Shown: positions 18,659-31,510 of the stretch, piece by piece
How positions within the stretch are numbered: the first letter of the stretch is position 1
How the letters are laid out: every line of letters begins with the position of its first letter
Origin: Oscillospiraceae bacterium
Lineage (GTDB): Bacteria; Bacillota; Clostridia; Oscillospirales; Oscillospiraceae
NCBI GenBank assembly: GCA_017439425.1
Contig: JAFSJE010000078.1
Coordinates: 1 to 50,568 of the forward strand
Reading direction: 5' to 3'
Length of the DNA stretch: 50,568 bases
Translations under genes and position numbers: made by a program
Notes under the pieces: model-generated
The model's database searches: none
What the model saw: the letters and a program-made list of their open reading frames with translations, nothing else
What the model was told of the DNA's origin: nothing

Positions 18659-18675
18659 TATGAAACTCGGTATCG
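18659..18675 (+). repeat. attL core of the integrated element
   Basis: The 17-bp direct repeat TATGAAACTCGGTATCG recurs at 31494-31510, next to the integrase gene. It covers the start codon and first five codons of ychF. The sequences diverge right after it (GAATTTAACC here, TAGGACTGCC there). Confidence 0.9.
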
Positions 18676-18683
18676 GAATTTAA
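18660..18683 (+). pseudogene. Severed 5' end of ychF (seven codons, then stop)
   Basis: ATGAAACTCGGTATCG is identical to the first 16 bases of ychF at 31495. At this end the frame continues with element sequence as MKLGIGI and stops at 18683. It keeps the original ribosome site (AAAGGAG) and promoter but no gene. It is direct evidence that the element entered ychF. Confidence 0.85.
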
Positions 18684-18803
18684 CCCCAAAAATCAATAAG
18701 TCCTTATAAGTCGATAAAGGTCTATAAAGCCTTATATTACAAGGGCTGCCGAGCTTGCCGATTTTCATATAAGTCCATATATCCCCATGTATTCCAATGT
18801 CAG

Positions 18804-18824
18804 AATGGCGTAAAAATGGCGTAG
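18804..18824 (+). promoter_or_regulatory. Left arm-type integrase site pair
   Basis: AATGGCGTAA and AATGGCGTAG occur 11 bp apart. The same pair, same orientation and spacing, is at 31420-31440 beside attR, and one copy lies in the int promoter. The flanking 18676-18800 also contains several TATAAGTC/TAAAG-type short repeats, possibly more arm sites. Otherwise no gene is seen in 18684-18925. Confidence 0.65.
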
Positions 18825-18876
18825 ATTATTTCAAGAGCCCAATACAACGAAAAACCCAAATTGAAAAGTGCATTTC

Positions 18877-18907
18877 AAAGCCCCGAGCAGCTATGCCCGG
18901 GGCTTTT
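18877..18907. terminator. Terminator hairpin inside the left end of the element
   Basis: AAAGCCCCG and CGGGGCTTT form a 9-bp stem, followed on the + strand by TTTTCTT. On this strand it would stop transcripts from the stranded ychF promoter; on the other it could end the XRE gene at 18926. Confidence 0.75.
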
Positions 18908-18925
18908 CTTATCTATCAAAGCTTG

Positions 18926-19177
18926 TCAGCTCTTTTCCGGATTGAATTTCAGCAGCATATAAGGTTCTATTCCAAGAACGGTGGAAATATTGAATATCAC
19001 CTCTAGCGAGGTCGGGCGCAGCATATTCGGCGCTTCGATTCCCGCCATATGCTGACGGCTTATGCCTATTCTGTCCGCAAGCTGCTCCTGCGTCAATCCC
19101 TTTCGCTTTCGGTAATACGCAATGGCGTACCCAAGCTCAAGGTATCGCTCGCTGTTGTCAAACGAAGCGTTACGCAT
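18926..19177 (-). CDS. XRE-family helix-turn-helix regulator
   Basis: The 83-residue protein is almost entirely one XRE/Cro-C1 domain: YLELGYAIAYYRKRKGLTQE, then QLADRIGISRQHMAGIEAPN, then LEVIFNISTVLGIEPYMLL. The start is uncertain: ATG at 19177 is listed, but GTG codons at 19186 or 19195 sit nearer an AAGGGG site. It is divergent from the SLH surface-protein gene, whose promoter lies in the shared gap, so it may control that gene. No operator was clearly recognised. Confidence 0.82.
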   Translation of the reverse strand: MRNASFDNSERYLELGYAIAYYRKRKGLTQEQLADRIGISRQHMAGIEAPNMLRPTSLEVIFNISTVLGIEPYMLLKFNPEKS

Positions 19178-19255
19178 CCTCGACACTGTTATCACACCCC
19201 TTTTAACTATTTTAGCCAAGAAATCAAAATAATTAAATTTGATGTAAATTATCGT

Positions 19256-19284
19256 TTGACATATATAGAGCGACAATATATAAT
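19256..19284 (+). promoter_or_regulatory. Consensus promoter of the SLH surface-protein gene
   Basis: TTGACA at 19256-19261 and TATAAT at 19279-19284, both perfect, with 17-bp spacing. The leader of about 100 bases has two AAAGGAG-type sites; the second, 19377-19383, serves the ATG at 19391. Confidence 0.9.
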
Positions 19285-19390
19285 TTATAAGTGTAAATCG
19301 TTAATTATACAGTATCAAAAATTATATTAAAGGAGGTAAATTGCGTTAAAGCTTCTCGCATTTCCGAAATATCTTAAAGGAGAGTAAAAA

Positions 19391-22300
19391 ATGAATCGCA
19401 AAAGAGTTTTATCGATTATTCTTTGTTTTGTAATGGTCTTGGCACTCGTTCCTCCGCTTGCCGTAAATGCAAGTGCGGATAATCTTCCGGACGGGCTGTA
19501 TTTCCACGATGTTTACTGGGACAAAACAACTGGCGAGCGCGTTGTTGATGAAGCATATCAAAGCAACGAAATACAGATGGCAGTTGGCAGCAGGCTTTTC
19601 GCTGAATTCGTTTACATTGAAAACGGCGAGGAATCACAGGTTAATTTTGACGACCTTGCTGTTGATAACTGCGTAAAGGAAGTCATACGCAGCAATGGTC
19701 AAGAAGAAAATACTATTGCATTTAATAACCCTGGCAAAGCTGCAATCTCCTATAATAACTTTACTATAACTATTACCGTCGTGTTGCCTGATTTTGGCTT
19801 CTATACGAAGCCCGAAGCAAGCGAGGAAAATTATATCTCCGAGCTGAGATATAACGGAACTAACGGAACAGTTTATTTTGTTCCTCGTGAGAAAAGCTGG
19901 AATATAACAAGTGCTGATTTTCGTGGCAGTAGTGTTATAGTAGATGAAAGCGGAAAATATGCAACAGTTACTATTACAGACGTATCAGTAAATCAAATCA
20001 CCGGTCGCTATACAGCTAATTACGGTAATGGAAATGACTTTGGACGTAACACAAACGGCATTTCCATCGTCGACGTCACACCAGGACTTAAATGGCGCTG
20101 GACATCCTGGGACGAGGAAACTCAGTCCTATATGCCGGGCAGCGACAGCAACGTTAACAATTCCATAAACGGTCAAATTAACAACGGCCGGTTTGGCGAG
20201 CTTGTTTATTTTGACGGCGAGAAATATGAGAATGTCACCGCCGATAAGGTAACGGTCGATAATCCCGATATAGCAACCGTATCGGCGTATACTGCGCAGC
20301 CGGAATTCACTGACCTAGACTTTTTAAACTTCGGCGAGACGAATATTTCTTACACTGCAGACGGCAAGGAATATAAGCTCCACGTCAACGTCGGACTGCC
20401 CACCTTCGGCTTCTATTCAGAGCCGGAGGCAAGTGAGGAAAACTATATCTCCGAGCTGAGATATAACGGAACAAACGGCACGGTTTATCTTGTACCGTTA
20501 AACGACAGCTATCTTATCACCGACGCCGTTATTTACAGCGGCAACGACGCTGAGCTTGAAATCGTTGACGGCAAATATGTCAAAGTAACAGTCGATGATA
20601 TTACAAGCTCTTGGCTTAGAGTTCGCGTTTCCTATAATTCTGACTATTTTTCCACTGTAATACTAAATCTCGTCGACGTCACACCAGGACTTAAATGGCG
20701 CTGGACATCTTGGGATGAGGAAACACAGTCCTTTATACCAGGCAGTGACAGCAACGTTAACAATTCCATAAACGGCCATATGTCCAGCGGCTGGTCTGGC
20801 GAGCTTGTTTACTTTGACGGTGAGAATTATGAGAACGTCACCGCAGATAAGGTAACGGTCGATAATCCGGATATTGTAACCGTCTCTGCGGAAGCCGAGC
20901 AGCCGGAATTCACTGTCCTGCGCTTTACCGATTTCGGCGAAACAGATTTAATCTACAATGGCAATAAGCTCCACGTCACCGTCGGGCTGCCTGTTTACGG
21001 CTTCTATGCCAAACCGGAGGCAAGCGAGGAAAATTATATCTCCAAGCTGACATATAACGGTACAAACGGAACAGTTTATCTTGTCCCAATAAACGACAGT
21101 TATGTTATAACCGATGTTGGTTTTGATAGTGGCAGCGACGCAGACCTTGAAATTGTAGACGGCAAATATGTAAAGGTAACCTTCGAGGACATTACAACCC
21201 CTTGGTGCTTTATTCGCATCTACTCTAATTTTGGCTATACCACAGTAAAGCTTAATCTTGCAGACGCCACGCCGGGGCTGGTTAGTCGTTCACTTAAGTA
21301 TAACGAAGAAACAGATTCTCTTGAGCCAAATCTGGAAGATGAAGCGACAAAGGTTACCGAGATAAGCGCACCCATCGGGTGGAACCTACATAATGATATT
21401 CTCTGGCTTGATGAGAACGGCGAGCTTACTCACATTTCAGCTTCCGAGTTCACAAAGAGCGGCGACTATTTCTCGCTCAGTGAAACCGAAAACGGCGTTA
21501 CTGTAATTCACTTTGAAAACTTCGGTCACGGCGGCTACATCAGCTATAACGGAAACAAAATAGCAATTGATACTATGCTGCCCTTTTTCGGCTTCTACAG
21601 CGCTCCGCAAAAAACCGAGGCAAACTATATTTCTGATAGCCGCCAGCGCTCTGGCTATGATAGCGGGGAAAATATCTCTTTTGACTATCTCCCGAAGGAT
21701 TATCTCAATTCAAGCGACAACAAGGTCTATTTCTATGCCGACGATGAGATAGTCGATGGCAGCGTAAAGTGTGACAACGAGAACATTACCGCAACTCTCG
21801 CTGTTGACCGCGACGGCGCCCAGTACATCGAAATCGCAGTTGACCCCGCGCTCGAAGCAAGCACCTCCGCAAATGTACGCTATGTCATCAAAAACTACAG
21901 AGGCGAGGAAACACGCGAGGCGCACGTCGACTTCCGTTACACCGGCCGCGTTTTTGACTGGTCTCCCGCAGATTACGACGAGAAGACCAACACGGCAAAG
22001 CTCCGCACCGACCCCACTTGGTACAGCTACGAGAACACCCGCTACTTTTCTAACGGAGCTACCATGATTTGGGGTATCGCCTATAAGGGCAAGCTTATCA
22101 ACGATGCAGCTCTCCTTAAATTCAGTGACAATCTCGACGTTGAAGACCTTGGCGGCGGCTTCTACAAGATGGTACTTAACGGCTGGGATTTTGCAAGCAT
22201 TGAGTATCTCGGCAATGATAAGGGCAAGACGATTACCATCGGAAATCAGCTTCCCTATATGGGTACTTACAAATCTATCAATGGATTTGACCCCAAGAGC

Positions 22301-24193
22301 CCCAGCCATATCGGCGACGAAGCGGCGCTCAAGGAAAGCTACATTCCCGGTATTCCGAAGCTGACTGAGCTTACTGATGATACGTTCTACTTTCTTCCGA
22401 TTTTCAGAACCGTTACCGCCGCGTCCACCGAGAGCAAAGCCGCAGCTGTCACGCTCCAGAACGGAATCGTCACGGTCAAGGTCAACAAATCTGAGCTTAC
22501 AGATTATGAAACCGTAATTCCTATAGATTATACTTATACCGCAGGCGAATCGGAGTATGCCTCTCATATGGATGTACCCGTAATCAACGATATAGCCGTT
22601 CAGATGACAGCAAATGTTGATACATCGAGCGAGATAAATCCTGATGTATATACCGGCGAGCAGAAAGAGCTTGCCCAAAACGTGGTTAACGCCATAGCCT
22701 CTGTCAGCGCCAGCGTTGACACAGAAAAGGCTGCCGAAGCTAACGAGGCTTTAGCCGGACAAGCAAATGAAATCGCAGAAGATACCGGAAACGAGCTTTC
22801 AAACGTCGACGAGGTCAAGGTTGAGGTCGCGCTCAGTGTAAAGGCAACCGAATTTGACCCCGAGAGCGGAAAGCTGACTCTTGATATTACCCCGACCGTA
22901 ACCTATACCTATACTGAAAACGTCGAGGGCAGCGACGATAAGACAGCGAGCAACGTTGTTCCGAACGCGACTGAAACTCCGGCTCCGATAACCATTTCCA
23001 TTACACTGCCGGATTCACTCACTCCAAAGGCAATTCGCCATATCCACGGTGAGGAAGCGAATCAGGTCATCTCCTATATCCCCGTAACAGTCGTTGACAA
23101 TGGCAACGGAACTATTACCGTAAGCTGGGAGCAGGATAAATTCAGCACCGTCGAGATACTCTCTGACGTTGCCGCTATCAACTTTATGCATGCAAATGGT
23201 GAGGTTGAAGCCGTAATCTTTACTGAGGAGGATATTGGAAAGTCCCTTGTCTCCGATACAAAAAACGGCTATACCTTTAAGGGCTGGACTATCGGTGATA
23301 ACACCTATACGACGCTTACACAGAATCTTTACGATGCGTTGAAGGCGTCTAAGACCGCTCTTGACGCAACCCCGGTGTTTACCGCAAATCCGCTTCCAGA
23401 AGATGTTGTGACACCGGTCGTTGTTCCCACTAGCTCTGCGCCCTATGCAATTACAGTCGAGACTGTCGAGAACGGTAAAATTTCCGTAAGCGATGAGAGT
23501 GCCGCTAAGGACGATACTGTGACCGTCACCGTAACGCCCAATGAGGGATATATCCTTGATACAATCACCTGCGACGGAGCCGAGCTCACAAAGGTTAGCG
23601 ATACGGAATATACCTTTACAATGCCCGGTAAAGCTGTTGCTATAAAGGCGACGTTTAAGAAGGCATTGATATTCTCCGATGTTGAAGCCGGAAGCTATTA
23701 TGAAAAGGCTGTTGAATGGGCTGTAGAAAATGGCATCACTAAAGGAACAAGTGAAACTACCTTTATGCCGAACGGAGACTGCACTCGCGCTCAGGCTGTC
23801 ACTTTCCTGTGGCGCGCCCTCAACTGCCCCGAGCCTTCGGCAAAGGCTTCTGAATTTGCCGACGTGACTGACGAAAACGCATTCTATTACAAGGCTGTCC
23901 TCTGGGCGGCTGAGAACGACATTACGCTCGGCATAGGCGATGGAACATTCGGAGTTGATTATACCGTGACCCGCGGTCAGATGGTAACCTTCATGATGAG
24001 AGCAATGAAGGGCAAGACCGAAAAAGTCGAAAGCTTTGCAGATATTGCGCCTGAGAGCTTCTATGCAGAAGCTGCCGCATGGGCAAAGGAGAGCGGCATA
24101 TCCGACGGCATCGGCAATAATAAATTTGGCGGCGAGCAAAATTGCCTCAGAGCTCAGATTGTTACAATGCTGTACAGATATTTTGTGAAATAA
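19391..24193 (+). CDS. Large secreted repeat protein anchored by three S-layer homology domains
   Basis: The 1600-residue protein has a signal peptide (MNRKRVLSIILCFVMVLALV to about NASA at 29). About four imperfect units of near 200 residues follow, each with a GFYxxPEASEENYIS-type motif and TPGLKWRWTSWDEETQS-type motif. Neighbouring units repeat at DNA level with periods of 603 and 588 bp. A middle region (about 1075-1330) is less repetitive. Then comes a bacterial-repeat-like domain (ENGKISVSDESAAKDDTVTV, about 1350-1420) and three SLH domains (about 1427-1600, IFSDVEAGSYYEKAVEWAVE onward) that should bind pyruvylated wall polymers. The middle units may be adhesive, but the ligand is unknown. 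It is cargo of the integrated element and lowers the local GC. Confidence 0.88.
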   Translation: MNRKRVLSIILCFVMVLALVPPLAVNASADNLPDGLYFHDVYWDKTTGERVVDEAYQSNEIQMAVGSRLFAEFVYIENGEESQVNFDDLAVDNCVKEVIRSNGQEENTIAFNNPGKAAISYNNFTITITVVLPDFGFYTKPEASEENYISELRYNGTNGTVYFVPREKSWNITSADFRGSSVIVDESGKYATVTITDVSVNQITGRYTANYGNGNDFGRNTNGISIVDVTPGLKWRWTSWDEETQSYMPGSDSNVNNSINGQINNGRFGELVYFDGEKYENVTADKVTVDNPDIATVSAYTAQPEFTDLDFLNFGETNISYTADGKEYKLHVNVGLPTFGFYSEPEASEENYISELRYNGTNGTVYLVPLNDSYLITDAVIYSGNDAELEIVDGKYVKVTVDDITSSWLRVRVSYNSDYFSTVILNLVDVTPGLKWRWTSWDEETQSFIPGSDSNVNNSINGHMSSGWSGELVYFDGENYENVTADKVTVDNPDIVTVSAEAEQPEFTVLRFTDFGETDLIYNGNKLHVTVGLPVYGFYAKPEASEENYISKLTYNGTNGTVYLVPINDSYVITDVGFDSGSDADLEIVDGKYVKVTFEDITTPWCFIRIYSNFGYTTVKLNLADATPGLVSRSLKYNEETDSLEPNLEDEATKVTEISAPIGWNLHNDILWLDENGELTHISASEFTKSGDYFSLSETENGVTVIHFENFGHGGYISYNGNKIAIDTMLPFFGFYSAPQKTEANYISDSRQRSGYDSGENISFDYLPKDYLNSSDNKVYFYADDEIVDGSVKCDNENITATLAVDRDGAQYIEIAVDPALEASTSANVRYVIKNYRGEETREAHVDFRYTGRVFDWSPADYDEKTNTAKLRTDPTWYSYENTRYFSNGATMIWGIAYKGKLINDAALLKFSDNLDVEDLGGGFYKMVLNGWDFASIEYLGNDKGKTITIGNQLPYMGTYKSINGFDPKSPSHIGDEAALKESYIPGIPKLTELTDDTFYFLPIFRTVTAASTESKAAAVTLQNGIVTVKVNKSELTDYETVIPIDYTYTAGESEYASHMDVPVINDIAVQMTANVDTSSEINPDVYTGEQKELAQNVVNAIASVSASVDTEKAAEANEALAGQANEIAEDTGNELSNVDEVKVEVALSVKATEFDPESGKLTLDITPTVTYTYTENVEGSDDKTASNVVPNATETPAPITISITLPDSLTPKAIRHIHGEEANQVISYIPVTVVDNGNGTITVSWEQDKFSTVEILSDVAAINFMHANGEVEAVIFTEEDIGKSLVSDTKNGYTFKGWTIGDNTYTTLTQNLYDALKASKTALDATPVFTANPLPEDVVTPVVVPTSSAPYAITVETVENGKISVSDESAAKDDTVTVTVTPNEGYILDTITCDGAELTKVSDTEYTFTMPGKAVAIKATFKKALIFSDVEAGSYYEKAVEWAVENGITKGTSETTFMPNGDCTRAQAVTFLWRALNCPEPSAKASEFADVTDENAFYYKAVLWAAENDITLGIGDGTFGVDYTVTRGQMVTFMMRAMKGKTEKVESFADIAPESFYAEAAAWAKESGISDGIGNNKFGGEQNCLRAQIVTMLYRYFVK

Positions 24194-24221
24194 TTTTTTG
24201 AAAAGTACATTTCAACACAAA

Positions 24222-24256
24222 TACCCGGAGCGCGATCGCGCTCCGGGTACTCTTTA
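24222..24256 (+). terminator. Terminator of the SLH surface-protein gene
   Basis: 24222-24249 is a 28-bp perfect palindrome (TACCCGGAGCGCGA / TCGCGCTCCGGGTA), followed by CTCTTTA. Confidence 0.8.
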
Positions 24257-24288
24257 TGCTCGACAATTTGCTCATGGAAACCATTATC

Positions 24289-24319
24289 AAAAACGCCCGG
24301 GGCAATTAAGCCTCGGGCG
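24289..24319 (-). terminator. Terminator overlapping the stop codon of the small Spo0E-like gene
   Basis: On the minus strand CGCCCGAGGC, loop TTAATT, GCCCCGGGCG (10-bp stem with one G-U) is followed by TTTTT. The TAA stop codon at 24308-24306 lies in the loop, so the gene and its terminator overlap. Confidence 0.8.
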
Positions 24320-24548
24320 CCTCGTTTTTCAAAATCTCGTCTCTCATTTCAAGATGCTGCTGCTCAAGATTATCCCATTTTTCTTTCAGCTCCTTGTATT
24401 CCTCGAGTGCTTTCAAAACCCTTTCGTCAGTGTACGGAACACCGCTGTCCACAAGCTCCTTTAACTTCGCTCTTGCTGCTTCGACCTCAACGCCGATACT
24501 GTAAAGTCTGGCACCGGACATAATTAGCAGCTCTTTATCTATGCTCAT
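24306..24548 (-). CDS. Small coiled-coil protein, weakly Spo0E-like
   Basis: The 80-residue protein is two predicted helices: residues about 5-34 (KELLIMSGARLYSIGVEVEA) and about 42-75 (DERVLKALEEYKELKEKW). Size and spacing recall Spo0E-type aspartyl-phosphate phosphatases, which dephosphorylate Spo0A, but the SQxLD signature is not present, so this is tentative. The ATG at 24548 follows AAGGAG by 8 bases. It is divergent from the XRE gene at 24706, and three operator-like palindromes lie between them. Confidence 0.6.
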   Translation of the reverse strand: MSIDKELLIMSGARLYSIGVEVEAARAKLKELVDSGVPYTDERVLKALEEYKELKEKWDNLEQQHLEMRDEILKNEAPEA

Positions 24549-24570
24549 TCTGCTCACTCCTTATCTGTAT

Positions 24571-24684
24571 AACCCGTTTTCGGGTAACTGCTATTCTATA
24601 AAAATTTCCATTTAATGTCAACCCGTATTCGGGTAATTTCCTATCTCAATACAGTTATCATTATAATAACCCGTAAATGGGTAA
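24571..24684. promoter_or_regulatory. Three evenly spaced palindromic operators (AACCCGT-N3-CGGGTAA type)
   Basis: AACCCGTTTTCGGGTAA (24571-24587), AACCCGTATTCGGGTAA (24620-24636) and AACCCGTAAATGGGTAA (24668-24684) start 49 and 48 bp apart in the divergent gap. They are the likely binding sites of the XRE protein encoded at 24706, controlling both genes. Confidence 0.82.
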
Positions 24685-24705
24685 TTATTTGATAGGTGTG
24701 AGATT

Positions 24706-24945
24706 ATGGATTACTCAGATATTTATATTCGGAGAATTAAAAAGCTCTGCGCTGAACGCGGAATCGCTATAAACAAGCTTGCGACAATGAGCGACGTCAA
24801 GCAATCAACGCTTGACAACATCGTGAGAGGTCTGACCAAGAATCCGCGTGTAATGACGCTGCACAAAATCGCGCTTGCGTTTGGCATGACGCTATCAGAG
24901 TTTCTTGACTTTGACGAGCTTAACGATTATTCTTTTGACGATTGA
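24706..24945 (+). CDS. XRE-family helix-turn-helix regulator
   Basis: The 79-residue protein is a single Cro/C1 domain: IYIRRIKKLCAERGIAINKL, ATMSDVKQSTLDNIVRGLTK, then HKIALAFGMTLSEFLDFDEL. It lacks any sensor or dimerisation extension. The divergent gap in front of it holds three copies of a palindrome, suggesting self-regulation together with the small Spo0E-like gene. A terminator follows. Confidence 0.88.
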   Translation: MDYSDIYIRRIKKLCAERGIAINKLATMSDVKQSTLDNIVRGLTKNPRVMTLHKIALAFGMTLSEFLDFDELNDYSFDD

Positions 24946-24966
24946 TTGAAAGTGTATATTCAAAAT

Positions 24967-24997
24967 GCCCGAGGCTTAACCGCCCCGGGCTTTCTTT
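24967..24997 (+). terminator. Terminator after the XRE gene, convergent with the SprT-like gene
   Basis: GCCCGAGGC, loop TTAACC, GCCCCGGGC (one mismatch) followed by TTTCTTT. It is nearly the same hairpin as the one at 24289-24319. Confidence 0.75.
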
Positions 24998-25640
24998 ATA
25001 CCTCGACCATCTGCTCCATACAGTCCATGCACATTATCCGAATCGTTTTTGTCGCTCTCACGCTGTTACCGCAGCAGGGGCAAATCAGCTTTCTTGTGCT
25101 GCTCGGCTTTGGCGTTACTGTCGTCGTGCCTCCCGCCGTACCCTTGCCGCCGATGCCCCGCGCCATATAGCCGTCCTCGCGGTTCATATGTATCTCCGTC
25201 CAGCCCTGTTTGATGATGTAATCAATAAGCGCCTCTGTCGGCTCTGTGATGCTCCATCCGATGCGCGGGTCATAGCTGATGCTCAGGTCGCGTTCCTCGG
25301 CAGCCTCCTTAAACCGCTTGTTGTGATACGTACCGCCTCTACTACAATCCTGAATTCCGTGCTGAAGGTTCAGGAGGTGGCACATCTCGTGGAGCAGTGT
25401 CGAAACGACACTAGATATGGGTCTGTCAAGCGTTCCGGCGCCTATGTTCAACTCGTGACGCTGCTCTCCGTCCGCTCTGCTCCAAGCCTTAGCAACGGTA
25501 ACGTGACCGTATGCCCTCGGTGTGCTCTGGATGGTGATGATAGGTTCCTCAAGTTCATTGTCGAAATAGTCGCGGTTGAGAGTGCGGAAAATCTTCTCCA
25601 AATAGCCCGCTGTTCTGCTCGTTTTGATTGTTTCCTTCAT
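24996..25640 (-). CDS. SprT-like zinc metalloprotease
   Basis: The 214-residue protein has a SprT-like domain with the HEMCH zinc/catalytic motif (VVSTLLHEMCHLLNLQHG, about residues 79-96) and a later HNKRFKEAAEERDL segment. It ends in a zinc ribbon (CPCC...CMDC, about 185-210). SprT-like proteases in eukaryotes digest DNA-crosslinked proteins; bacterial ones on mobile elements have no settled role. A linker near residue 170 is Gly/Thr-rich (GKGTAGGTTT). ATG at 25640 is preferred over one 5 codons earlier because GGAGGG lies just ahead of it. The 177 bp between this gene and the repressor upstream show no further gene. Confidence 0.85.
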   Translation of the reverse strand: MKETIKTSRTAGYLEKIFRTLNRDYFDNELEEPIITIQSTPRAYGHVTVAKAWSRADGEQRHELNIGAGTLDRPISSVVSTLLHEMCHLLNLQHGIQDCSRGGTYHNKRFKEAAEERDLSISYDPRIGWSITEPTEALIDYIIKQGWTEIHMNREDGYMARGIGGKGTAGGTTTVTPKPSSTRKLICPCCGNSVRATKTIRIMCMDCMEQMVEV

Positions 25641-25817
25641 GGTTTTGCCCTCCATAATCAAAGATGGTGTCAACGCCTTGCGTCGTCGTCGACGCCCTTG
25701 ATTACAGAAAAACGCCCCCTCTGCCGCCGTCAAGACTGGCTCTCAGCCACTCGCGCGAAAAATCTTGGAACAAGAATTTTCCGGTCTTGCACGGCATTAG
25801 GCAGCGGGGGTGTATTA

Positions 25818-26423
25818 TTAAAATTTTAAATCTTCTTCCTTTTCTTCTTCCAATATCACAACTCTACCATATCCATATCTTGCGTTTTTTGCTGATGGAG
25901 ATAGCTCTATCGGAGTCTCAGCCGTCTTGAGCTCTGCGATTTTTTCTTTTAACCATTTATCGCTTGCCGAAATCTCATCTTCAACAAATTTTTCCGGAAA
26001 CAATTCTTTCGCTTGCCCGTATTTATCCTGATACGAGTTTCTATCTTGAATAGCTCGCGTGACGTTGCTCTCCGGCAGCTCGATTCTTGTTCCGTCTGCA
26101 TTAAAGCTGCCCGCTAATAACTGCTCCACAACAATCGTAAGAACGCTAAGGACTTCACCAGCATTCCAGTCATCCATATTCTTAACATACTTGCTCCGAC
26201 CACAAAGCTCGTCTAATGACATATGTAAGTAATCAGCTATAATAACAGCAGATGACAATGTCGGTTCTCTCATATCATCGCAGTCTCTATATCTGGCAAG
26301 GTTCACACCGGTTTTTTCTTTTATTCTATTTCTGGTTATTTTCCTATCTTTTAGTGTTTCTTCAAGATTCTTAGCAAATTTTTTGCTGATTATTTCTTTT
26401 TTTGAGACATTCGTTGTATCCAC
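25818..26423 (-). CDS. Putative repressor with N-terminal helix-turn-helix
   Basis: The 201-residue protein begins with a helix-turn-helix region (LEETLKDRKITRNRIKEKTG, then ARYRDCDDMREPTLSSAVII and MSLDELCGRSKYV), followed by a C-terminal part of about 110 residues with no recognised fold and an acidic tail (EEEKEEDLKF). GTG at 26423 is chosen as start because AAAGGA lies 9 bases ahead; the open frame extends to a TTG at 26477 without a site. It is transcribed away from the rep-transfer module by a mirror-image promoter, the arrangement of a phage-type or ICE-type master repressor. Confidence 0.78.
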   Translation of the reverse strand: MDTTNVSKKEIISKKFAKNLEETLKDRKITRNRIKEKTGVNLARYRDCDDMREPTLSSAVIIADYLHMSLDELCGRSKYVKNMDDWNAGEVLSVLTIVVEQLLAGSFNADGTRIELPESNVTRAIQDRNSYQDKYGQAKELFPEKFVEDEISASDKWLKEKIAELKTAETPIELSPSAKNARYGYGRVVILEEEKEEDLKF

Positions 26424-26567
26424 GCTATCACATCCTTTGTTCACAAAAAGTTCATAATTTTTATGATTATTCGTCAAAAAGCAACAATTAGAAAAGCTTA
26501 ATTTGCTTATTTTGAAAAGTTTTACGGCGTATTTTCATGTTTTACGCTCAACCTTTTGCTGTTTAGC

Positions 26568-26596
26568 ATTATAGCACCATATATTTTTATTGTCAA
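26568..26596 (-). promoter_or_regulatory. Promoter of the repressor gene
   Basis: On the minus strand TTGACA (26596-26591), 17 bp, TATAAT (26573-26568): both boxes are consensus. The sequence TTGACAATAAAAATA...GTGCTATAAT almost copies the divergent promoter 30 bp away. Confidence 0.88.
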
Positions 26597-26625
26597 GTGG
26601 CATAGTTCTATATTTTTCTCGCTTT

Positions 26626-26655
26626 TTGACAATACAAATAAAGATGTGCTATCAT
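26626..26655 (+). promoter_or_regulatory. Promoter of the rep-transfer module
   Basis: TTGACA at 26626-26631, 18 bp, TATCAT at 26650-26655. It contains TTGACAATACAAATA and GTGCTATCAT, matching the opposing repressor promoter but with a longer spacer and weaker -10, so it should be the weaker of the two. Confidence 0.82.
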
Positions 26656-26706
26656 TTTGTCAGATGAGCTGGCCAGCGCATCAAAAAAATATAAGGAGGC
26701 CATAAA

Positions 26707-27054
26707 ATGGCTAATGATTTAACAATATCTGACGTTGTCATCGACGTCCCCAAGACTCTTGGCCGCAATGTGCTTGCGGTCGCCAGCGAACCCTCGCGTG
26801 AGTATATTGACGGTAAGCCCAGCGACACAATCAGCGCATATCGCTACACCCTTGTCCTTGCCGATAAGGCCTATAAGGCTATAACTGTCAAGGTTCCAGG
26901 TACCGAGCATATCGAAATCGCGCCCGGCGAAGTCGTTCCCGTTTTTGTTGAAGGTCTTACTATCAGACCATATATCTCAAACTCCGGTTCTCGTCCAAGT
27001 ATTATGCTTTCAGCTACCGCAAACTCTGTCCGTAAGGCGGACAATAAGGGTTAA
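26707..27054 (+). CDS. YdcP/DUF961-like protein of conjugative-element replication module
   Basis: The 115-residue protein has REYIDGKPSDTISAYRYTLV, VKVPGTEHIEIAPGEVVPVF and a final basic tail. This pattern, a short beta-rich protein with REYxDG and xYRYTV-type motifs right before rep and FtsK-like genes, matches the YdcP (DUF961) proteins that occupy the same place in Tn916 (orf22/orf23) and ICEBs1. Their role is not settled. AAGGAGG precedes the ATG by 7 bases. Identification rests on motif resemblance plus position, so it is moderate. Confidence 0.65.
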   Translation: MANDLTISDVVIDVPKTLGRNVLAVASEPSREYIDGKPSDTISAYRYTLVLADKAYKAITVKVPGTEHIEIAPGEVVPVFVEGLTIRPYISNSGSRPSIMLSATANSVRKADNKG

Positions 27055-27213
27055 TCCGGCGTTGATGGTATATGGCTGCCGATCAACGGCGGCCATATAC
27101 CTTCTGAATCGGTGTAATCGGTGTAAATACCGGATTAACCCTTTGATTCTCTATACGCGCGCGGCCTCTGGCTGCGTCCAAAGGCCGCGCGCAAAAGTGT
27201 AATAGGTGTAATT
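27055..27213 (+). other. Candidate replication/nicking origin upstream of rep
   Basis: This 159-bp gap has a 15-bp-stem hairpin (GGTATATGGCTGCCG / CGGCGGCCATATACC, 27067-27101), two tandem GGTGTAA repeats (27111-27126), an 11-bp GC-only-type hairpin (GCGCGCGGCCT / AGGCCGCGCGC, 27157-27192), and two more GTGTAA repeats (27197-27211) that overlap the rep ribosome site. Hairpins plus iterons beside an HUH Rep gene are what a rolling-circle origin looks like. The nick site itself cannot be identified. Confidence 0.55.
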
Positions 27214-28377
27214 ATGAATAATCGAAAGAAACAATGCGAAATCATACTCTATATCGAGGACGGTTTCACTCAAGAATCAATCATTGCCGAGATAAAAAAG
27301 CGCAGTGTCGATAAATATTGCATCGCTTGTCACGATAAGGATACAAAAAGTGATGGCACTCCGGATAAGCCGCATTATCATGTATATCTACATTTTGCAA
27401 ATGGTGCATCTTGGCCGCTTGATGCAGTTGCCAAATGGTTTGGATGCGGCGAACACCTTGTGTCTCCCATAAATGCAGATAAATACGGCAACGGGAAAAA
27501 AGCAATGTATAACGTAATTCGTTACTACACTCATTGCGATTTTCCTAACAAGGCTCAATACGACGCTAGCACTTTTGTATCTAATTTTGATGTTAATAAA
27601 TTTCTTGCAGAAAATGCTATTAGTTTCTCATCTAAAGTTGTCCTTACAGACAAGCTTGACGTTATATTAGGCATGTGTGCTAATGGCAAAATAACTAAAG
27701 TTAACCTATATGAATATATGACCCCTGAGTTTTTCTCCAAGTATAAAACAAGAATAGACGCTGTTATGGGCGATTATCACAATTCGATATATTTCGGTGA
27801 GAATGGATATAACAGAGAGCTTACTGCAATATATGCTTTCGGAAAGCCTGGCAGTGGGAAAACTACCCTAAGCAAACTATATTGCGAACAACTTGAAAAG
27901 CTCTATTATGTTTCTTCGCCGGGTCGCAACTACGGAGACGAGTATAGGGGCGAACCCATGATAATAATGGATGATATAAGAGCAGAAGATATTCCGTTTG
28001 TAGAACTCATAAAGCTTGTTGAGCCTCACACAAATTCAGCACTTAAGGCCCGAAACAAGAACAAAATCAATATGTCTGATACGGTTTTCTTAACGTCAAT
28101 ATTCAGCCCAAAAGAATTTATAAAATCATACCATCTTGTCAATGAAGACCCTAACCAGTTCTATCGTCGCCTTTCGGCGGTATGGGAAGTAACGAGAGAG
28201 TATATATTCATCTACACTATATCCGACGACGGAGTATTAACTTTGAAGGAGACTGTTCCTAATCCAGTACCTAATTATTTAAAGACTCTGCCTCCAAAAG
28301 AAGATACTATAGCTACTTCTGTCGGGGTGCTAAATGCAGTTGCTGCCAAATATTCGCACAAGGAGGACACACAATGA
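27214..28377 (+). CDS. Rolling-circle Rep: HUH endonuclease fused to CRESS-type SF3 helicase
   Basis: The 387-residue protein starts with a Rep_2-type HUH nuclease: motif I CIACHDKD (36-43), metal motif KPHYHVYLHF (H54, H56), and RYYTHCDFPNKAQY (103-116), which includes candidate catalytic tyrosines. After a linker, an ATPase follows: Walker A GKPGSGKTT (210-218), Walker B MIIMDD (249-254) preceded by YGDEYRGEP, and a motif C-like segment VFLTS (291-295). This domain pair is the plan of CRESS-DNA virus Reps and of the bacterial plasmid Reps thought to be related to them, rather than of pMV158 RepB, which lacks this helicase. It should nick and unwind the excised circle, and perhaps act as relaxase. 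Its stop overlaps the next gene as ATGA. Confidence 0.87.
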   Translation: MNNRKKQCEIILYIEDGFTQESIIAEIKKRSVDKYCIACHDKDTKSDGTPDKPHYHVYLHFANGASWPLDAVAKWFGCGEHLVSPINADKYGNGKKAMYNVIRYYTHCDFPNKAQYDASTFVSNFDVNKFLAENAISFSSKVVLTDKLDVILGMCANGKITKVNLYEYMTPEFFSKYKTRIDAVMGDYHNSIYFGENGYNRELTAIYAFGKPGSGKTTLSKLYCEQLEKLYYVSSPGRNYGDEYRGEPMIIMDDIRAEDIPFVELIKLVEPHTNSALKARNKNKINMSDTVFLTSIFSPKEFIKSYHLVNEDPNQFYRRLSAVWEVTREYIFIYTISDDGVLTLKETVPNPVPNYLKTLPPKEDTIATSVGVLNAVAAKYSHKEDTQ

Positions 28378-28625
28378 TAATAACAGCTAAGACTAACAGT
28401 CTCGTCTACATCGAGAGCGGCTATTTCGACGAGGGGGATGACCTCTCCCTCGCCATCGACCACATTGAGGAATTATACCCTAGAGCGCGTAAAAGAGTTA
28501 TAATCGCGCCGAACAAGTGGTACACAGCCAGCCTCGCTGAGTATCTTATCAGCCATTACAACGCCGAGATTACATATACCTGTCCTCACGGTACTATCAT
28601 CGAGTGGGGCGGTTCGAATGGATAA
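28374..28625 (+). CDS. Conserved-position 83-residue protein of unknown function
   Basis: The small acidic protein (MIITAKTNSLVYIESGYFDE to GTIIEWGGSNG) has mixed alpha/beta character, one Cys, and no signal or membrane segment. It is locked between rep (4-bp ATGA overlap) and the FtsK-like gene (8-bp overlap), with AAGGAGG 7 bases ahead of its start, so it is certainly translated with them. I do not recognise a family. The alternation of hydrophobic strands with an ELYPRARKRVIIAPNKWY segment suggests a small nucleotide- or DNA-handling partner, but that is a guess. Confidence 0.75.
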   Translation: MIITAKTNSLVYIESGYFDEGDDLSLAIDHIEELYPRARKRVIIAPNKWYTASLAEYLISHYNAEITYTCPHGTIIEWGGSNG

Positions 28626-29910
28626 AGACTCTCTGCGTACCCAAACGCTTGCTCTGTATCATCTACGAGTCTTCTGGCAAGGTATAAAAAGCATCCTTGC
28701 CAAACCCGTAAGGGTGCTAATTGTTCCGTTTGCTTTACTGGCAGCAATATTATTTCGCCTTTTATGGATTGCTGCATCTCCTGAAATTATTCGCCCCATA
28801 GTCTCAGATATTACAATCCCAATAATAATAATTTCAGCAGCATTCTCTGTCTATGTTCTGGGTGCTCAAAAAAGGAGCTTAGATATTTACAAAGATATGC
28901 TCCGCGCCGGGATAGTCAACTCAGCCGGAGAAGCGCCGCTGCTGATTGCACGTTCTAAAGCTAACGACGTTGAAACGCTGACCTTTTTGGTCACCGGCAT
29001 ACCGCTTGACGTATGGCGCGATAATCAAGCAGCCATTGAAACAGCCCTCAACCTTACCATCGGTACGATACGCGAAAGCAGCGACAAGCGCACAATCACT
29101 ATCGAAGCTGTCAGCCCATCTGTCGCCTTTGCCGATACAATACCTTTCACAACGGAAATGTTGCCTGACAGAGACACGGTGTTTGCACTTGGCGAGACTA
29201 TCACTCGCCAGCCCGTGACAATCGACTTCAACTCTATCCCTCATGCCCTTATCGGTGGTGCAACCGGAAGCGGAAAAAGTACGCAGCTCCGACTGCTCAT
29301 TCACCAAGCCGTCCTGCACGGCGCAGACGTATATCTCGTTGACCTCAAAGGGCTTGATTTTATAGATATACAGCAAATTCAGCTTGTTACAGAAATTGAA
29401 AATGCACTTTCAACTATTCAAACTGTCGAAAATGAAATGTATGCTCGCCTCAATGACTTCCGCGCGCACGGTGCAAAGGACTACCGCGACTATTGTCTCA
29501 AAGCCGACCCGAGAAAATATAAACGCATTTTTCTTATTATAGATGAAATTAGTATGCTCCTCGACCACGGGACAAGCAAGGAAGCAAAAGCCCGGTCAAC
29601 AGAGGCGGCTGACAGCCTCGCGGCTATCGCGCGTCAAGGTCGCGCTGTTGCGGTCTACCTTATTTTGTCAACGCAGCGTCCCGACGCTGCAAGCCTCCCC
29701 GGAAGCATAAAAAGCAACATAAACTGCCGTATCTGCGGCTCAGCAGACGCCACGCTCAGCACTATCGTCCTCGGTGACGGGCGTGCAAACGACCTTCCGA
29801 AAGACCAACCGGGAATTTTTTTATACTCGGATGGCAAAGAGGACTCTATATATAAAGGATACATATTATCAAACACTATCGAAAGGAGTGAAAATCTTGA
29901 CAAACGATAA
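28618..29910 (+). CDS. FtsK/SpoIIIE-type DNA translocase (TcpA/TraB-like coupling pump)
   Basis: The 430-residue protein has two N-terminal membrane helices (about residues 33-52 and 61-81), a small domain (about 85-200) and an FtsK-type motor. The motor shows Walker A GGATGSGKST (213-222), VYLVDLKGLDF, Walker B IFLIIDEI (304-311) and LSTQRPDAASLPGSIK. Similar proteins are the coupling protein in Tn916 (Orf21) and pCW3 (TcpA), and the sole transfer pump (TraB) in Streptomyces elements. It lacks the gamma DNA-orienting domain of FtsK. With no other transfer gene in the element, it is either a TraB-like pump or a coupling protein for a helper system. Confidence 0.9.
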   Translation: MDKDSLRTQTLALYHLRVFWQGIKSILAKPVRVLIVPFALLAAILFRLLWIAASPEIIRPIVSDITIPIIIISAAFSVYVLGAQKRSLDIYKDMLRAGIVNSAGEAPLLIARSKANDVETLTFLVTGIPLDVWRDNQAAIETALNLTIGTIRESSDKRTITIEAVSPSVAFADTIPFTTEMLPDRDTVFALGETITRQPVTIDFNSIPHALIGGATGSGKSTQLRLLIHQAVLHGADVYLVDLKGLDFIDIQQIQLVTEIENALSTIQTVENEMYARLNDFRAHGAKDYRDYCLKADPRKYKRIFLIIDEISMLLDHGTSKEAKARSTEAADSLAAIARQGRAVAVYLILSTQRPDAASLPGSIKSNINCRICGSADATLSTIVLGDGRANDLPKDQPGIFLYSDGKEDSIYKGYILSNTIERSENLDKR

Positions 29911-30103
29911 ATACTATGTCCCTATAGAAAATAAGTGTAATCTTTCAATTCCAGAGGCAACGGCTTATTTCAATATTGGGAAGAACAAAATAAGTAAACT
30001 CCTCAAAGCCCCTAACTGCCCATTTCTTCTCAAGGTCGGGGCAAAGCAGCTCGTCAAACGCAAAGAATTTGAGGAATTTATCAGCAATCACACCGAAATT
30101 TGA
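29897..30103 (+). CDS. xis: Excisionase (Tn916 Xis-like)
   Basis: The 68-residue protein has the winged-helix plan of Tn916 Xis: CNLSIPEATAYFNIGKNKIS, then KAPNCPFLLKVGAKQLVKRK and EFEEFI. It would bend att DNA and steer the integrase toward excision. A TTG start at 29897 is chosen because GAAAGGAG lies about 8 bases ahead and the homologous region starts there; the open frame extends further upstream inside the FtsK-like gene without a site. It overlaps that gene by 14 bp. Confidence 0.85.
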   Translation: MTNDKYYVPIENKCNLSIPEATAYFNIGKNKISKLLKAPNCPFLLKVGAKQLVKRKEFEEFISNHTEI

Positions 30104-30132
30104 TTATTTTACATAGAAAAATAAAATGAAAC

Positions 30133-30161
30133 TTGTGAGAATGGCGTAAATATGATATAAT
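30133..30161 (+). promoter_or_regulatory. Promoter of int with an embedded arm-type site
   Basis: TTGTGA at 30133-30138 and TATAAT at 30156-30161 with 17-bp spacing. The spacer contains AATGGCGTAAA (30140-30150), the same word found in pairs at both ends of the element, so Int could repress its own gene by binding here. Confidence 0.75.
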
Positions 30162-30202
30162 TATTTAGTTGTATTGGGCTCATTCTTAGGAAGGAGCTTA
30201 AT

Positions 30203-31429
30203 ATGGGTAAAAATATAAAGGGAAGAAAGCTTGGAAAGGGGCTTTCTCAACGCAAGGACGGAAGATTTTCCGCAAGGTTTGTCACAAAAACCGGTAAAAG
30301 GGTGGAGAAGTATTTTTCTACCCTTCAAGAAGCGCGTGACTGGCTCGAGGATGCAAAATATGAGGATAAGCACTCCGTGATGATTCCTTTTCAGACTGTT
30401 GCAGACAACATTCTTTCTCAGGATTCTGCGGTGCTTGCTTTCAGAGAAATGACGGTTGACCAGTGGTACGATTACTGGAAAAACAATCTCTTAACTCACC
30501 TTGCTCCTAATTCCATCCGCAACAAAAACGAACGCTACACAATGAACATCAAGCCCGTTATCGGAAATATGCGTATTATAGACGTTAAGCCGATGGATTG
30601 TATCAGGGTTCTGAACGGTATGTACGACACTTATAAAGGCTCTACAATAAAACAGACATATATAACGATGGGCGCGATGTTCAAGGCAGCAAGGATGAAC
30701 GGTGTTATCCAGAAGCACCCTATGGACGGTGTTCGGTACAAGAGCGATGTAAAGGCAAAAAGCGAGATACATTTTCTGACCGTGGACGAACAGCGCAAGT
30801 TTTTAGAGACTGCCAAGCGTTCACACAATTTCCGTCAGTATGCTCTAATCCTTGAGACAGGCTTGAGAACCGGAGAGCTAATCGGCTTGACTTGGGATGA
30901 TATTGACTTTGAAAACCGCACTTTGACCGTCAGAAAGACCCTTGAGTATCGCTATAAGCAGACGGAATGGAGAGCCGGGCCTCCAAAGACTATTTCAAGC
31001 TACCGTACTATTCCGCTGACAGACAAGGCAATGGAGCTTCTAAAAGAGCTCTATTCCGAGAGAGACAGCAGAAAGCTTTCTGAGGATTTATCAAAGACGC
31101 TCTATTATATGGACAGACTGACGGGAACGAAAAAGCCTCTCGTTATGAAAGACCTTGTGTTTATCAACTTCCGTACCGGAATGCCAAGCAAAAACAGCAG
31201 CTATGACACACACCTCTACAAGCTGTGCGATGAAGCCGGAATTGAACGCTTTTGTATGCACGCGCTCAGACACACCTACGCCACAAGAGCCATTGAGCGT
31301 GGCGTAAATCCAAAGGCGCTGCAAATGCTTTTAGGGCATTCTTCCCTCCAGACAACTATGGATACATACGTCCATGTGACCGACGACTCAAAGCGGTCTG
31401 CTGTGGAGCAATTTCAAAAAATGGCGTAG
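30203..31429 (+). CDS. int: Tyrosine-recombinase integrase (Tn916 Int family)
   Basis: The 408-residue protein has a small N-terminal arm-binding domain (about residues 8-55, GRFSARFVTKTGKRVEKYFS), a core-binding domain (about 84-180) and a catalytic domain. The catalytic set is complete: R222 (TGLRTGELIGL), K262-region, H353 and R356 (HALRHTYATRA), H379 (LLGHSS) and Y389 (TMDTYVHV). GGAAGGAGC precedes the ATG. Its stop codon overlaps the first right-hand arm site, and attR is 65 bp further on, so the protein should be active and integrates at the ychF start. Confidence 0.96.
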   Translation: MGKNIKGRKLGKGLSQRKDGRFSARFVTKTGKRVEKYFSTLQEARDWLEDAKYEDKHSVMIPFQTVADNILSQDSAVLAFREMTVDQWYDYWKNNLLTHLAPNSIRNKNERYTMNIKPVIGNMRIIDVKPMDCIRVLNGMYDTYKGSTIKQTYITMGAMFKAARMNGVIQKHPMDGVRYKSDVKAKSEIHFLTVDEQRKFLETAKRSHNFRQYALILETGLRTGELIGLTWDDIDFENRTLTVRKTLEYRYKQTEWRAGPPKTISSYRTIPLTDKAMELLKELYSERDSRKLSEDLSKTLYYMDRLTGTKKPLVMKDLVFINFRTGMPSKNSSYDTHLYKLCDEAGIERFCMHALRHTYATRAIERGVNPKALQMLLGHSSLQTTMDTYVHVTDDSKRSAVEQFQKMA

Positions 31430-31440
31430 AAATGGCGTAA
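31420..31440 (+). promoter_or_regulatory. Right arm-type integrase site pair
   Basis: AATGGCGTAG and AATGGCGTAA, 11 bp apart, mirror the left-end pair at 18804-18824. The first overlaps the int stop codon. Confidence 0.65.
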
Positions 31441-31493
31441 AAGCCATCTTCAAAACGCTTGAAACCCTTGAAAATAAAGGAGATATGAGAACA

Positions 31494-31510
31494 TATGAAA
31501 CTCGGTATCG
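31494..31510 (+). repeat. attR core, at the rebuilt ychF start
   Basis: TATGAAACTCGGTATCG, identical to 18659-18675. It contains the start codon of the intact ychF copy. Confidence 0.9.

Follow-up and report, generated by a model that had tools for sequence, protein, structure and literature searches.

The window analysed here is the whole contig JAFSJE010000078.1 of an Oscillospiraceae bacterium (50,568 nucleotides, 50.6 kb), taken from a 2.3-Mb draft genome in 89 contigs (assembly GCA_017439425.1). Inserted at the start codon of its ychF gene is an element of ~12.8 kb (18659-31510), which we consider very probably to be an integrative and mobilizable element (IME). Its core is a 4.7-kb cassette (26707-31429) whose genes, all on the + strand, follow in the order 115-amino-acid protein, Rep, orf83, FtsK-like protein (the pump), excisionase (Xis) and integrase (Int). 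The features of the cassette and of the element ends are as follows.

18659..18675, + strand: attL core, left copy of a 17-bp repeat; it retains the native ychF leader and start codon, followed by a short frame to TAA
18806..18823, + strand: two tandem TGGCGTA words 11 bp apart (18806 and 18817) at the left end, candidate integrase arm sites
26707..27054, + strand: 115-amino-acid protein, conserved first gene of the cassette
27046..27192, + strand: candidate replication/transfer origin, a nested inverted repeat with a second hairpin (27157-27192)
27214..28377, + strand: Rep, 387 amino acids, with HYH at 54, YYTH at 104, Walker A at 210 and Walker B at 249 (PF01719 and PF00910)
28374..28625, + strand: orf83, with no assigned function (Pfam and PHROGs scans)
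28618..29910, + strand: TcpA-type coupling protein, an FtsK/SpoIIIE ATPase of 430 amino acids with two membrane segments (PF01580, 2e-20)
29897..30103, + strand: Tn916-type excisionase with a presumed TTG start (PF09035, 7e-21; PHROGs)
30142..30148, + strand: additional TGGCGTA word upstream of int, a putative functional site
30203..31429, + strand: tyrosine integrase (PF00589, 6e-33; PHROGs)
31422..31439, + strand: two tandem TGGCGTA words 11 bp apart (31422 and 31433) at the right end, candidate integrase arm sites
31494..31510, + strand: attR core, 17-bp repeat over the ychF start codon
31495-32589: ychF, now behind an element-derived leader

The direct repeat TATGAAACTCGGTATCG is present in exact copies at 18659 and 31494. 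In two genus mates (locus L105 in genome G252 and L106 in G181) the ychF site is uninterrupted: the left flank runs directly into ychF, with 95% and 92% identity, respectively, across the entire 776-base query, and an enolase gene lies further upstream (enolase and YchF as named by NCBIfam). Because of these uninterrupted sites, we regard the repeat as the true insertion boundary and 18659-31510 as the extent of the element. The left flank had no match in the other 27 of the 29 ychF loci compared, some of which are cut by contig ends. The insertion leaves the native leader at the left end of the element and places an element leader before ychF, a swap that could make ychF expression dependent on the element. 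The word TGGCGTA occurs 11 times in the window, both strands counted.

An earlier note on this DNA, made from its letters alone, had described 17-bp att repeats, a complete tyrosine integrase, a Tn916-like Xis, a two-domain Rep and an FtsK-type translocase with two membrane helices in a single + strand module of about 4.7 kb. All of this was borne out: the module is intact, Rep matches PF01719 (1e-9) and PF00910 (1e-8), both over cut-off, in an arrangement of HUH and superfamily 3 (SF3) helicase domains, and hydropathy places the membrane segments of the pump at residues 23-41 and 57-75. The same note had called the first protein YdcP-like, which was not confirmed. PF06125 is silent on the window protein and four relatives and yields 147 and 113 bits with genuine YdcPs. 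Pfam, NCBIfam and PHROGs give no match, a search of the PDB brought nothing meaningful (best E 0.059), and a profile comparison by hhalign (probability 1.9%) spoke neither for nor against the label; identity as YdcP/HelP (DUF961) thus has no support here. AlphaFold models of this protein and of orf83 (mean predicted local distance difference test scores 53.6 and 52.2) are too weak for fold comparison.

Judged by its database matches, the pump is a member of the TcpA coupling-protein family. Its best PDB matches are the chains 6o1w, 6o1x and 6o1z, labelled "DNA translocase coupling protein" (158 bits, E ~3e-45, residues 100-412), which we take to be pCW3 TcpA; the next chain, a cell division FtsK/SpoIIIE, reaches 63 bits and FtsK 48 bits. 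Among plasmids, those of Enterocloster bolteae (E. bolteae) match best (31-32% identity over 80%), and in the one examined the TcpA match adjoins TcpD, TcpE and a VirB4-type ATPase (PF12846, 240 bits). In a 29-row tree of ATPase domains, the window pump forms a clade of six rows (96/90) with the pumps of loci L036, L037, L080 and L083 and with E. bolteae TcpA; seven other pumps join Tn916 Orf21 (98/94), and pIJ101 Tra, the sole Tra yardstick, is placed elsewhere. This tree and the larger one discussed below both have long branches, and two long-branch joins were flagged.

Next, we examined related loci. When 394 genomes of the order were searched with a profile, 17 places, distributed over 15 genomes, scored at least 212 bits (14 with at least 457 and three with 212-269); the remaining matches, of at most 156 bits, were mostly long frames taken for chromosomal FtsK. 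Together with L036, L037 and L080, these make up 20 loci in 18 genomes with the window's pump type, here called type A. Upstream of the pump, tblastn detected Rep in 16 of the 20, MobT (PF02486) in two and neither in two. Rep precedes TcpA directly or, in some loci, with one small open reading frame (ORF) between them. In seven loci of another arrangement (type B), a Tn916-type TcpA lies upstream of Rep. Integrases 74-84% identical to that of L080 were found in both types, which indicates that modules have been exchanged between them. The Reps themselves vary: PF02407 with PF00910 in L080 and L166, PF02407 only in L164, PF01719 with PF00910 in L039, and PF00910 only in L036 and L037, where the called Rep is missing its N-terminus (a contig end in one case, an upstream stop in the other). 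One slot before the pump is thus filled by varied relaxase candidates, namely PF01719-helicase, PF02407-helicase and MobT proteins.

A class-level profile search matched 238 of 391 genomes, mostly through short P-loop matches, and the strongest (12 places, spread over 11 genomes, E at most 1.2e-12) were taken. Among 34 genomes of the genus, no pump match above 76.1 bits (itself taken for chromosomal FtsK) was found besides the window's own, and G267 (L044) gave a weak, broken match. Single-protein scans of viral_contigs and genome_contigs revealed no close relatives. End repeats were found in L037 (47 bp), L166 (18 bp), L168 (17 bp) and L165 (12 bp, with the same core as in L166 and L168), and repeats of 17 and 14 bp in L082 and L085. 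No end repeat longer than 13 bp was seen in L039, L078, L080, L083, L088, L171-L174 and L176; the survey left out L036, L164, L167, L169, L170, L175, L177 and L178.

Some relatives have peculiarities of their own. A type III restriction-modification pair lies inside the IME end repeats at L165:12784-18089 and L166:1339-6392. At L083:779-6577, a Cas9 gene adjoins a Rep-TcpA cassette that includes a serine recombinase, and the subsequent ORFs are in a candidate cas1/cas2-like arrangement. The Tn916-type TcpA ATPase of L081, L082, L085, L086 and L088 is a short ORF (235-284 amino acids) after a separate ORF of ~190-260 amino acids, which suggests a split pump. The pumps of L177 and L178, nearest to E. 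bolteae TcpA, have neither Rep nor MobT upstream.

The earlier note had also stated that the element lacks secretion genes, and it had named beforehand VirB4- or VirB6-type genes beside close relatives as the finding that would speak against its proposal. With Tcp proteins of E. bolteae and proteins of Tn916 and pCF10 as tblastn queries, we detected no secretion gene in the element, and no VirB4, VirB6 or VirB8 gene in the 20 type-A loci (stretches of 4-20 kb, several stopping at contig ends), with good sensitivity for VirB4 and weak sensitivity for the other two (E. bolteae against Tn916 as control: 5e-90 for VirB4, 6e-4 and 0.97 for VirB6 and VirB8). In L173, a VirD4-like gene ~5 kb from TcpA is probably part of a neighbouring integrative and conjugative element (ICE).

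Directly upstream of rep, the region 27040-27216 folds far better than its shuffled versions (z -8.68; none of 200 shuffles as good; DNA parameters). RGTGTAAW words stand at 27111, 27120, 27196 and 27205, out of 12 in the whole window (both strands). With RNA parameters, z was below -4 in seven of 13 Rep upstream regions and between 0.2 and 0.7 in the other six; for several of these loci the Rep start is only the start of the match.

An integrase of its own with defined ends, a PF01719 + PF00910 relaxase candidate, a TcpA-type pump and no detected channel genes are the features of an IME. We put the probability that the 12.8-kb element is an IME which borrows the mating channel of another element at roughly 85%. 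This was one of two alternatives offered by the earlier note, with Rep as candidate relaxase; the anatomy favours it, and streptococcal elements of this kind are known from the part of the literature consulted. In such a scheme, Int and Xis would excise the element as a circle, and Rep would nick one strand in the hairpin-rich region at 27.05-27.19 kb, which its own SF3 helicase would unwind; nicking and unwinding could serve transfer as well as rolling-circle copying. With Rep bound to it, the single strand would next be docked by TcpA onto a mating channel supplied by a resident conjugative element, our guess being one with a tcp system like that of pCW3 or E. bolteae. In the recipient, the strand would be recopied and integrate at ychF. 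The SprT-like gene and the XRE repressor candidate, both divergent from the cassette (24996-26477), may act as an on/off switch.

Several points weigh against this interpretation. Transfer, nicking and circle formation are all inferred. No helper is in sight: in 13 genomes (the window's own, four others with type A, seven with type B and one with Rep only; five of the 18 type-A genomes, all drafts), the E. bolteae VirB4 query found nothing; the set had no genome known to be positive, and the comparison of E. bolteae with Tn916 given above is the control. PF12846, which gives 240 and 539 bits with true VirB4s, peaked here at 28.6 bits (single match; 30.3 when neighbours are included, in G172), three of the 13 genomes exceeding the cut-off of 27.5. 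Mobilizable elements can, on the other hand, reside without a helper. Further, our first Rep searches gave 22 Rep places (10 + 12), 11 with a TcpA-like pump nearby and 11 without one as annotated (L038, L040-L043, L045, L046, L077, L079, L084 and L087, several of them short contigs). Rep without TcpA is therefore frequent, and its role may be confined to replication. In a 42-row tree with all 20 type-A pumps, the group of the window pump returns (21 rows) at 91/82, below firm support, and the window has no firm placement inside it; the Tn916 group stands at 99/93, and L177 and L178 join E. bolteae TcpA at 96/92. Since the pump assignment rests mainly on the PDB match, we left the odds of the competing explanations unchanged despite the weaker larger tree. 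Finally, Rep precedes TcpA in the window, in contrast to the streptococcal class, in which tcpA lies upstream of the relaxase gene in the text of PMC5357655 consulted, an order that is usual and not definitional.

According to another explanation, the element is an integrated rolling-circle plasmid of the pCRESS type that excises and replicates, its TcpA serving segregation or being vestigial, and spreads by other routes. The window Rep is indeed 27-30% identical to phytoplasma plasmid Reps, integrated elements with such Reps have been published (PMC6668415, as far as consulted), and half of the 22 Rep places mentioned above have no TcpA. An intact TcpA nevertheless stands beside Rep in 16 type-A and seven type-B loci, and beside MobT in two, and we consider this explanation improbable.

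A little less credit still is due to the first alternative of the earlier note, a Firmicute counterpart of actinomycete integrative and conjugative elements (AICEs), in which circles of double-stranded DNA would pass from cell to cell with the FtsK-like protein as sole pump. The minimal gene set of Rep, FtsK-like protein, Xis and Int is the same, no VirB4-type gene was seen in the element or in its own genome, and the pump has some similarity to pIJ101 Tra (57 bits) and to NF041214 plasmid_TraB (27.9 bits, cut-off 800). The Tra/TraB protein of AICEs carries a C-terminal DNA-binding domain. The window pump, however, belongs to the TcpA family and not to the Tra/TraB branch, as far as one Tra yardstick on a long branch can tell. 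From Walker A onward it has 214 residues, compared with 231 in Tn916 Orf21, 272 in E. bolteae TcpA and 329 in pIJ101 Tra, and Pfam finds no helix-turn-helix or other C-terminal DNA-binding domain in it; the yardstick's own MarR_2-type match (594-631, 24.6 bits) falls just under the cut-off of 27. Nor is Rep of the RepAM or Prim-Pol type (PF12307 and PF09250 absent by Pfam), which PMC3218068, the source of the AICE definition, lists together with RepSA in the text consulted. Pump family and domain content thus lead us to reject the AICE reading, attractive as it was: there is none here. The contrast from which the earlier note started, between AICEs and Firmicute ICEs equipped with secretion genes, omits IMEs that encode TcpA.

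That the element is a remnant of a phage or filamentous prophage is very improbable, since the RstR-like repressor candidate, a match of the pump to a terminase-labelled PHROG (42 bits; its FtsK-labelled match has 165) and, beside a related Rep in L084, a short ATPase that may be Zot-like, to judge by eye from its first residues, are set against the lack of any coat protein among eight window proteins scanned against PHROGs and of any locus in two single-protein scans of viral_contigs, which reach close relatives only.

Examination of Rep loci in relatives revealed candidate origins of viral type. We scanned from 400 nt before to 150 nt after the start of the Rep match for hairpins whose loop is NANTATTAC and whose stem has nine pairs or more, and found them at 16 of 31 Rep loci: 10 of 16 in type A, four of seven in type B and two of eight others (L080, L083, L164-L167, L169, L170, L172, L174, L078, L081, L082, L085, L084 and L087). 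In 12 of the 16, the sequence is TANTATTAC. L088 has TAGTATTAC with a shorter stem. The identical scan of the remaining 971,637 nt gave a single hairpin. It sits in L086, in the interval that separates TcpA from Rep and on the strand of both genes, at a distance of 741 nt from the Rep match. By the same scan, the hairpin is absent from the window, L037, L168 and L039, among others. These counts come from related, not independent, loci and from a pattern picked post hoc (TANTATTAC at first, relaxed to NANTATTAC after L081, L083 and L165); L045, L046 and L077 were left out, and L036, L171, L173, L079 and L040 had little upstream sequence.

In the part of PMC7826260 consulted, a nanovirus and porcine circovirus 2 have TAGTATTAC and AAGTATTAC as their cognate origins. 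Reps of this kind in bacterial elements are described in PMC6668415 and PMC8780604, without these origins in the text examined, and we found no description of such hairpin origins in the literature surveyed, supplements excluded. Tentatively, and at less than even odds, we propose a family of bacterial mobilizable elements whose transfer begins at an origin of viral type: their CRESS-type Reps would be relaxases that cut at a NANTATTAC hairpin of circovirus/nanovirus kind next to the rep gene and hand the strand to a TcpA pump, one lineage of which, of the pCW3 type, docks on tcp plasmids. The window element would belong to this family with an origin of another form, a double hairpin, and perhaps a switch of XRE repressor and SprT protease. 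That an initiator doubles as relaxase is still a proposal for these families in the literature examined; the hairpins offer concrete candidate nick sites for testing whether a plasmid- or virus-type initiator doubles as a conjugative relaxase.

Left of the cassette, the element carries cargo and regulators:

18926..19276, - strand: small HTH_3 regulator
19391..24193, + strand: cargo, a 1600-amino-acid surface protein (SLH domains, InlB-type B-repeat)
24306..24557, - strand: 83-amino-acid protein with no Pfam family
24706..24945, + strand: HTH_26/HTH_3 regulator (Pfam)
24996..25733, - strand: SprT-like metallopeptidase with an HEMCH motif; homologues in L037 (45%) and L175 (44%)
25818..26477, - strand: RstR-like/XRE repressor candidate, divergent from the transfer operon (NF041951, 31.8 bits against a cut-off of 80; phrog_8)

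A pair of XRE and SprT-like proteins recalls the ImmR/ImmA switch or DNA-protein crosslink repair. An SprT-like metalloprotease divergent from the transfer operon is also present at L037:8710-9240 and L175:14007-14729. Large SLH/InlB-repeat surface proteins lie within the element end repeats both in the window (19391-24193) and at L168:13621-17721. Homologues of the window SLH protein were detected by tblastn in five of the 20 type-A loci, the window counted. As 48-149 matches to SLH domains turn up in each of 15 of the 18 type-A genomes, this recurrence is not shown to exceed background, and we dropped SLH cargo as a hallmark of the element.

How, then, does the element compare with known systems? 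Coluzzi 2017 (PMC5357655) reports, in the text consulted, 144 streptococcal IMEs, 15 of them with PF01719 + PF00910 relaxase candidates and four of those with TcpA. Like the latter, the window element has a Rep_2 + helicase relaxase candidate, a TcpA-type pump, Xis and a tyrosine Int in a compact module free of mating-channel genes; unlike this class, it targets the ychF start codon and carries an SLH surface protein. The consulted text of PMC5357655 and PMC5704250 makes no mention of ychF (term counts 0). Helpers that have TcpA are proposed (PMC5704250), and in one IME the relaxase proved to be a Rep_trans initiator (PMC7563843), both as stated in the parts consulted. The window pump groups with the tcp-locus protein in trees that include no streptococcal TcpA. 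The E. bolteae plasmid NZ_CP069521, with a tcp locus of the pCW3 type, encodes a coupling protein of the same group as well as TcpD, TcpE, a VirB4-type ATPase and a MOBM relaxase (PLSDB typing), none of which was found in the window element.

With the Tn916/ICEBs1 superfamily, the window element shares a Tn916-type Xis, a TcpA-class pump and a rolling-circle-type initiator; it differs from these ICEs in having no MobT and no detected VirB4, a first protein with no match to DUF961 and a pump on another branch. Like actinomycete AICEs as presented in the consulted text of PMC3218068, where clt binding by Tra/TraB is reported, it combines Int/Xis, Rep and one FtsK-family protein with no type IV secretion genes, whereas its FtsK branch and Rep are different and its pump has no C-terminal DNA-binding domain match. 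The integrated pCRESS elements of Kazlauskas 2019 (PMC6668415) likewise have Reps with HUH and SF3 helicase domains and integrate site-specifically, and the YYTH of the window Rep is close to their YLxH; the main text of that paper, figure maps and supplements excluded, contains the terms FtsK, integrase, mobiliz and nonanucleotide 0 times each. As far as sequence can tell, the window element is a known kind of mobilizable element in a different arrangement and with a different pump lineage, and it indicates a second arrangement of TcpA-carrying IMEs, one whose pump groups with the TcpA of tcp loci.

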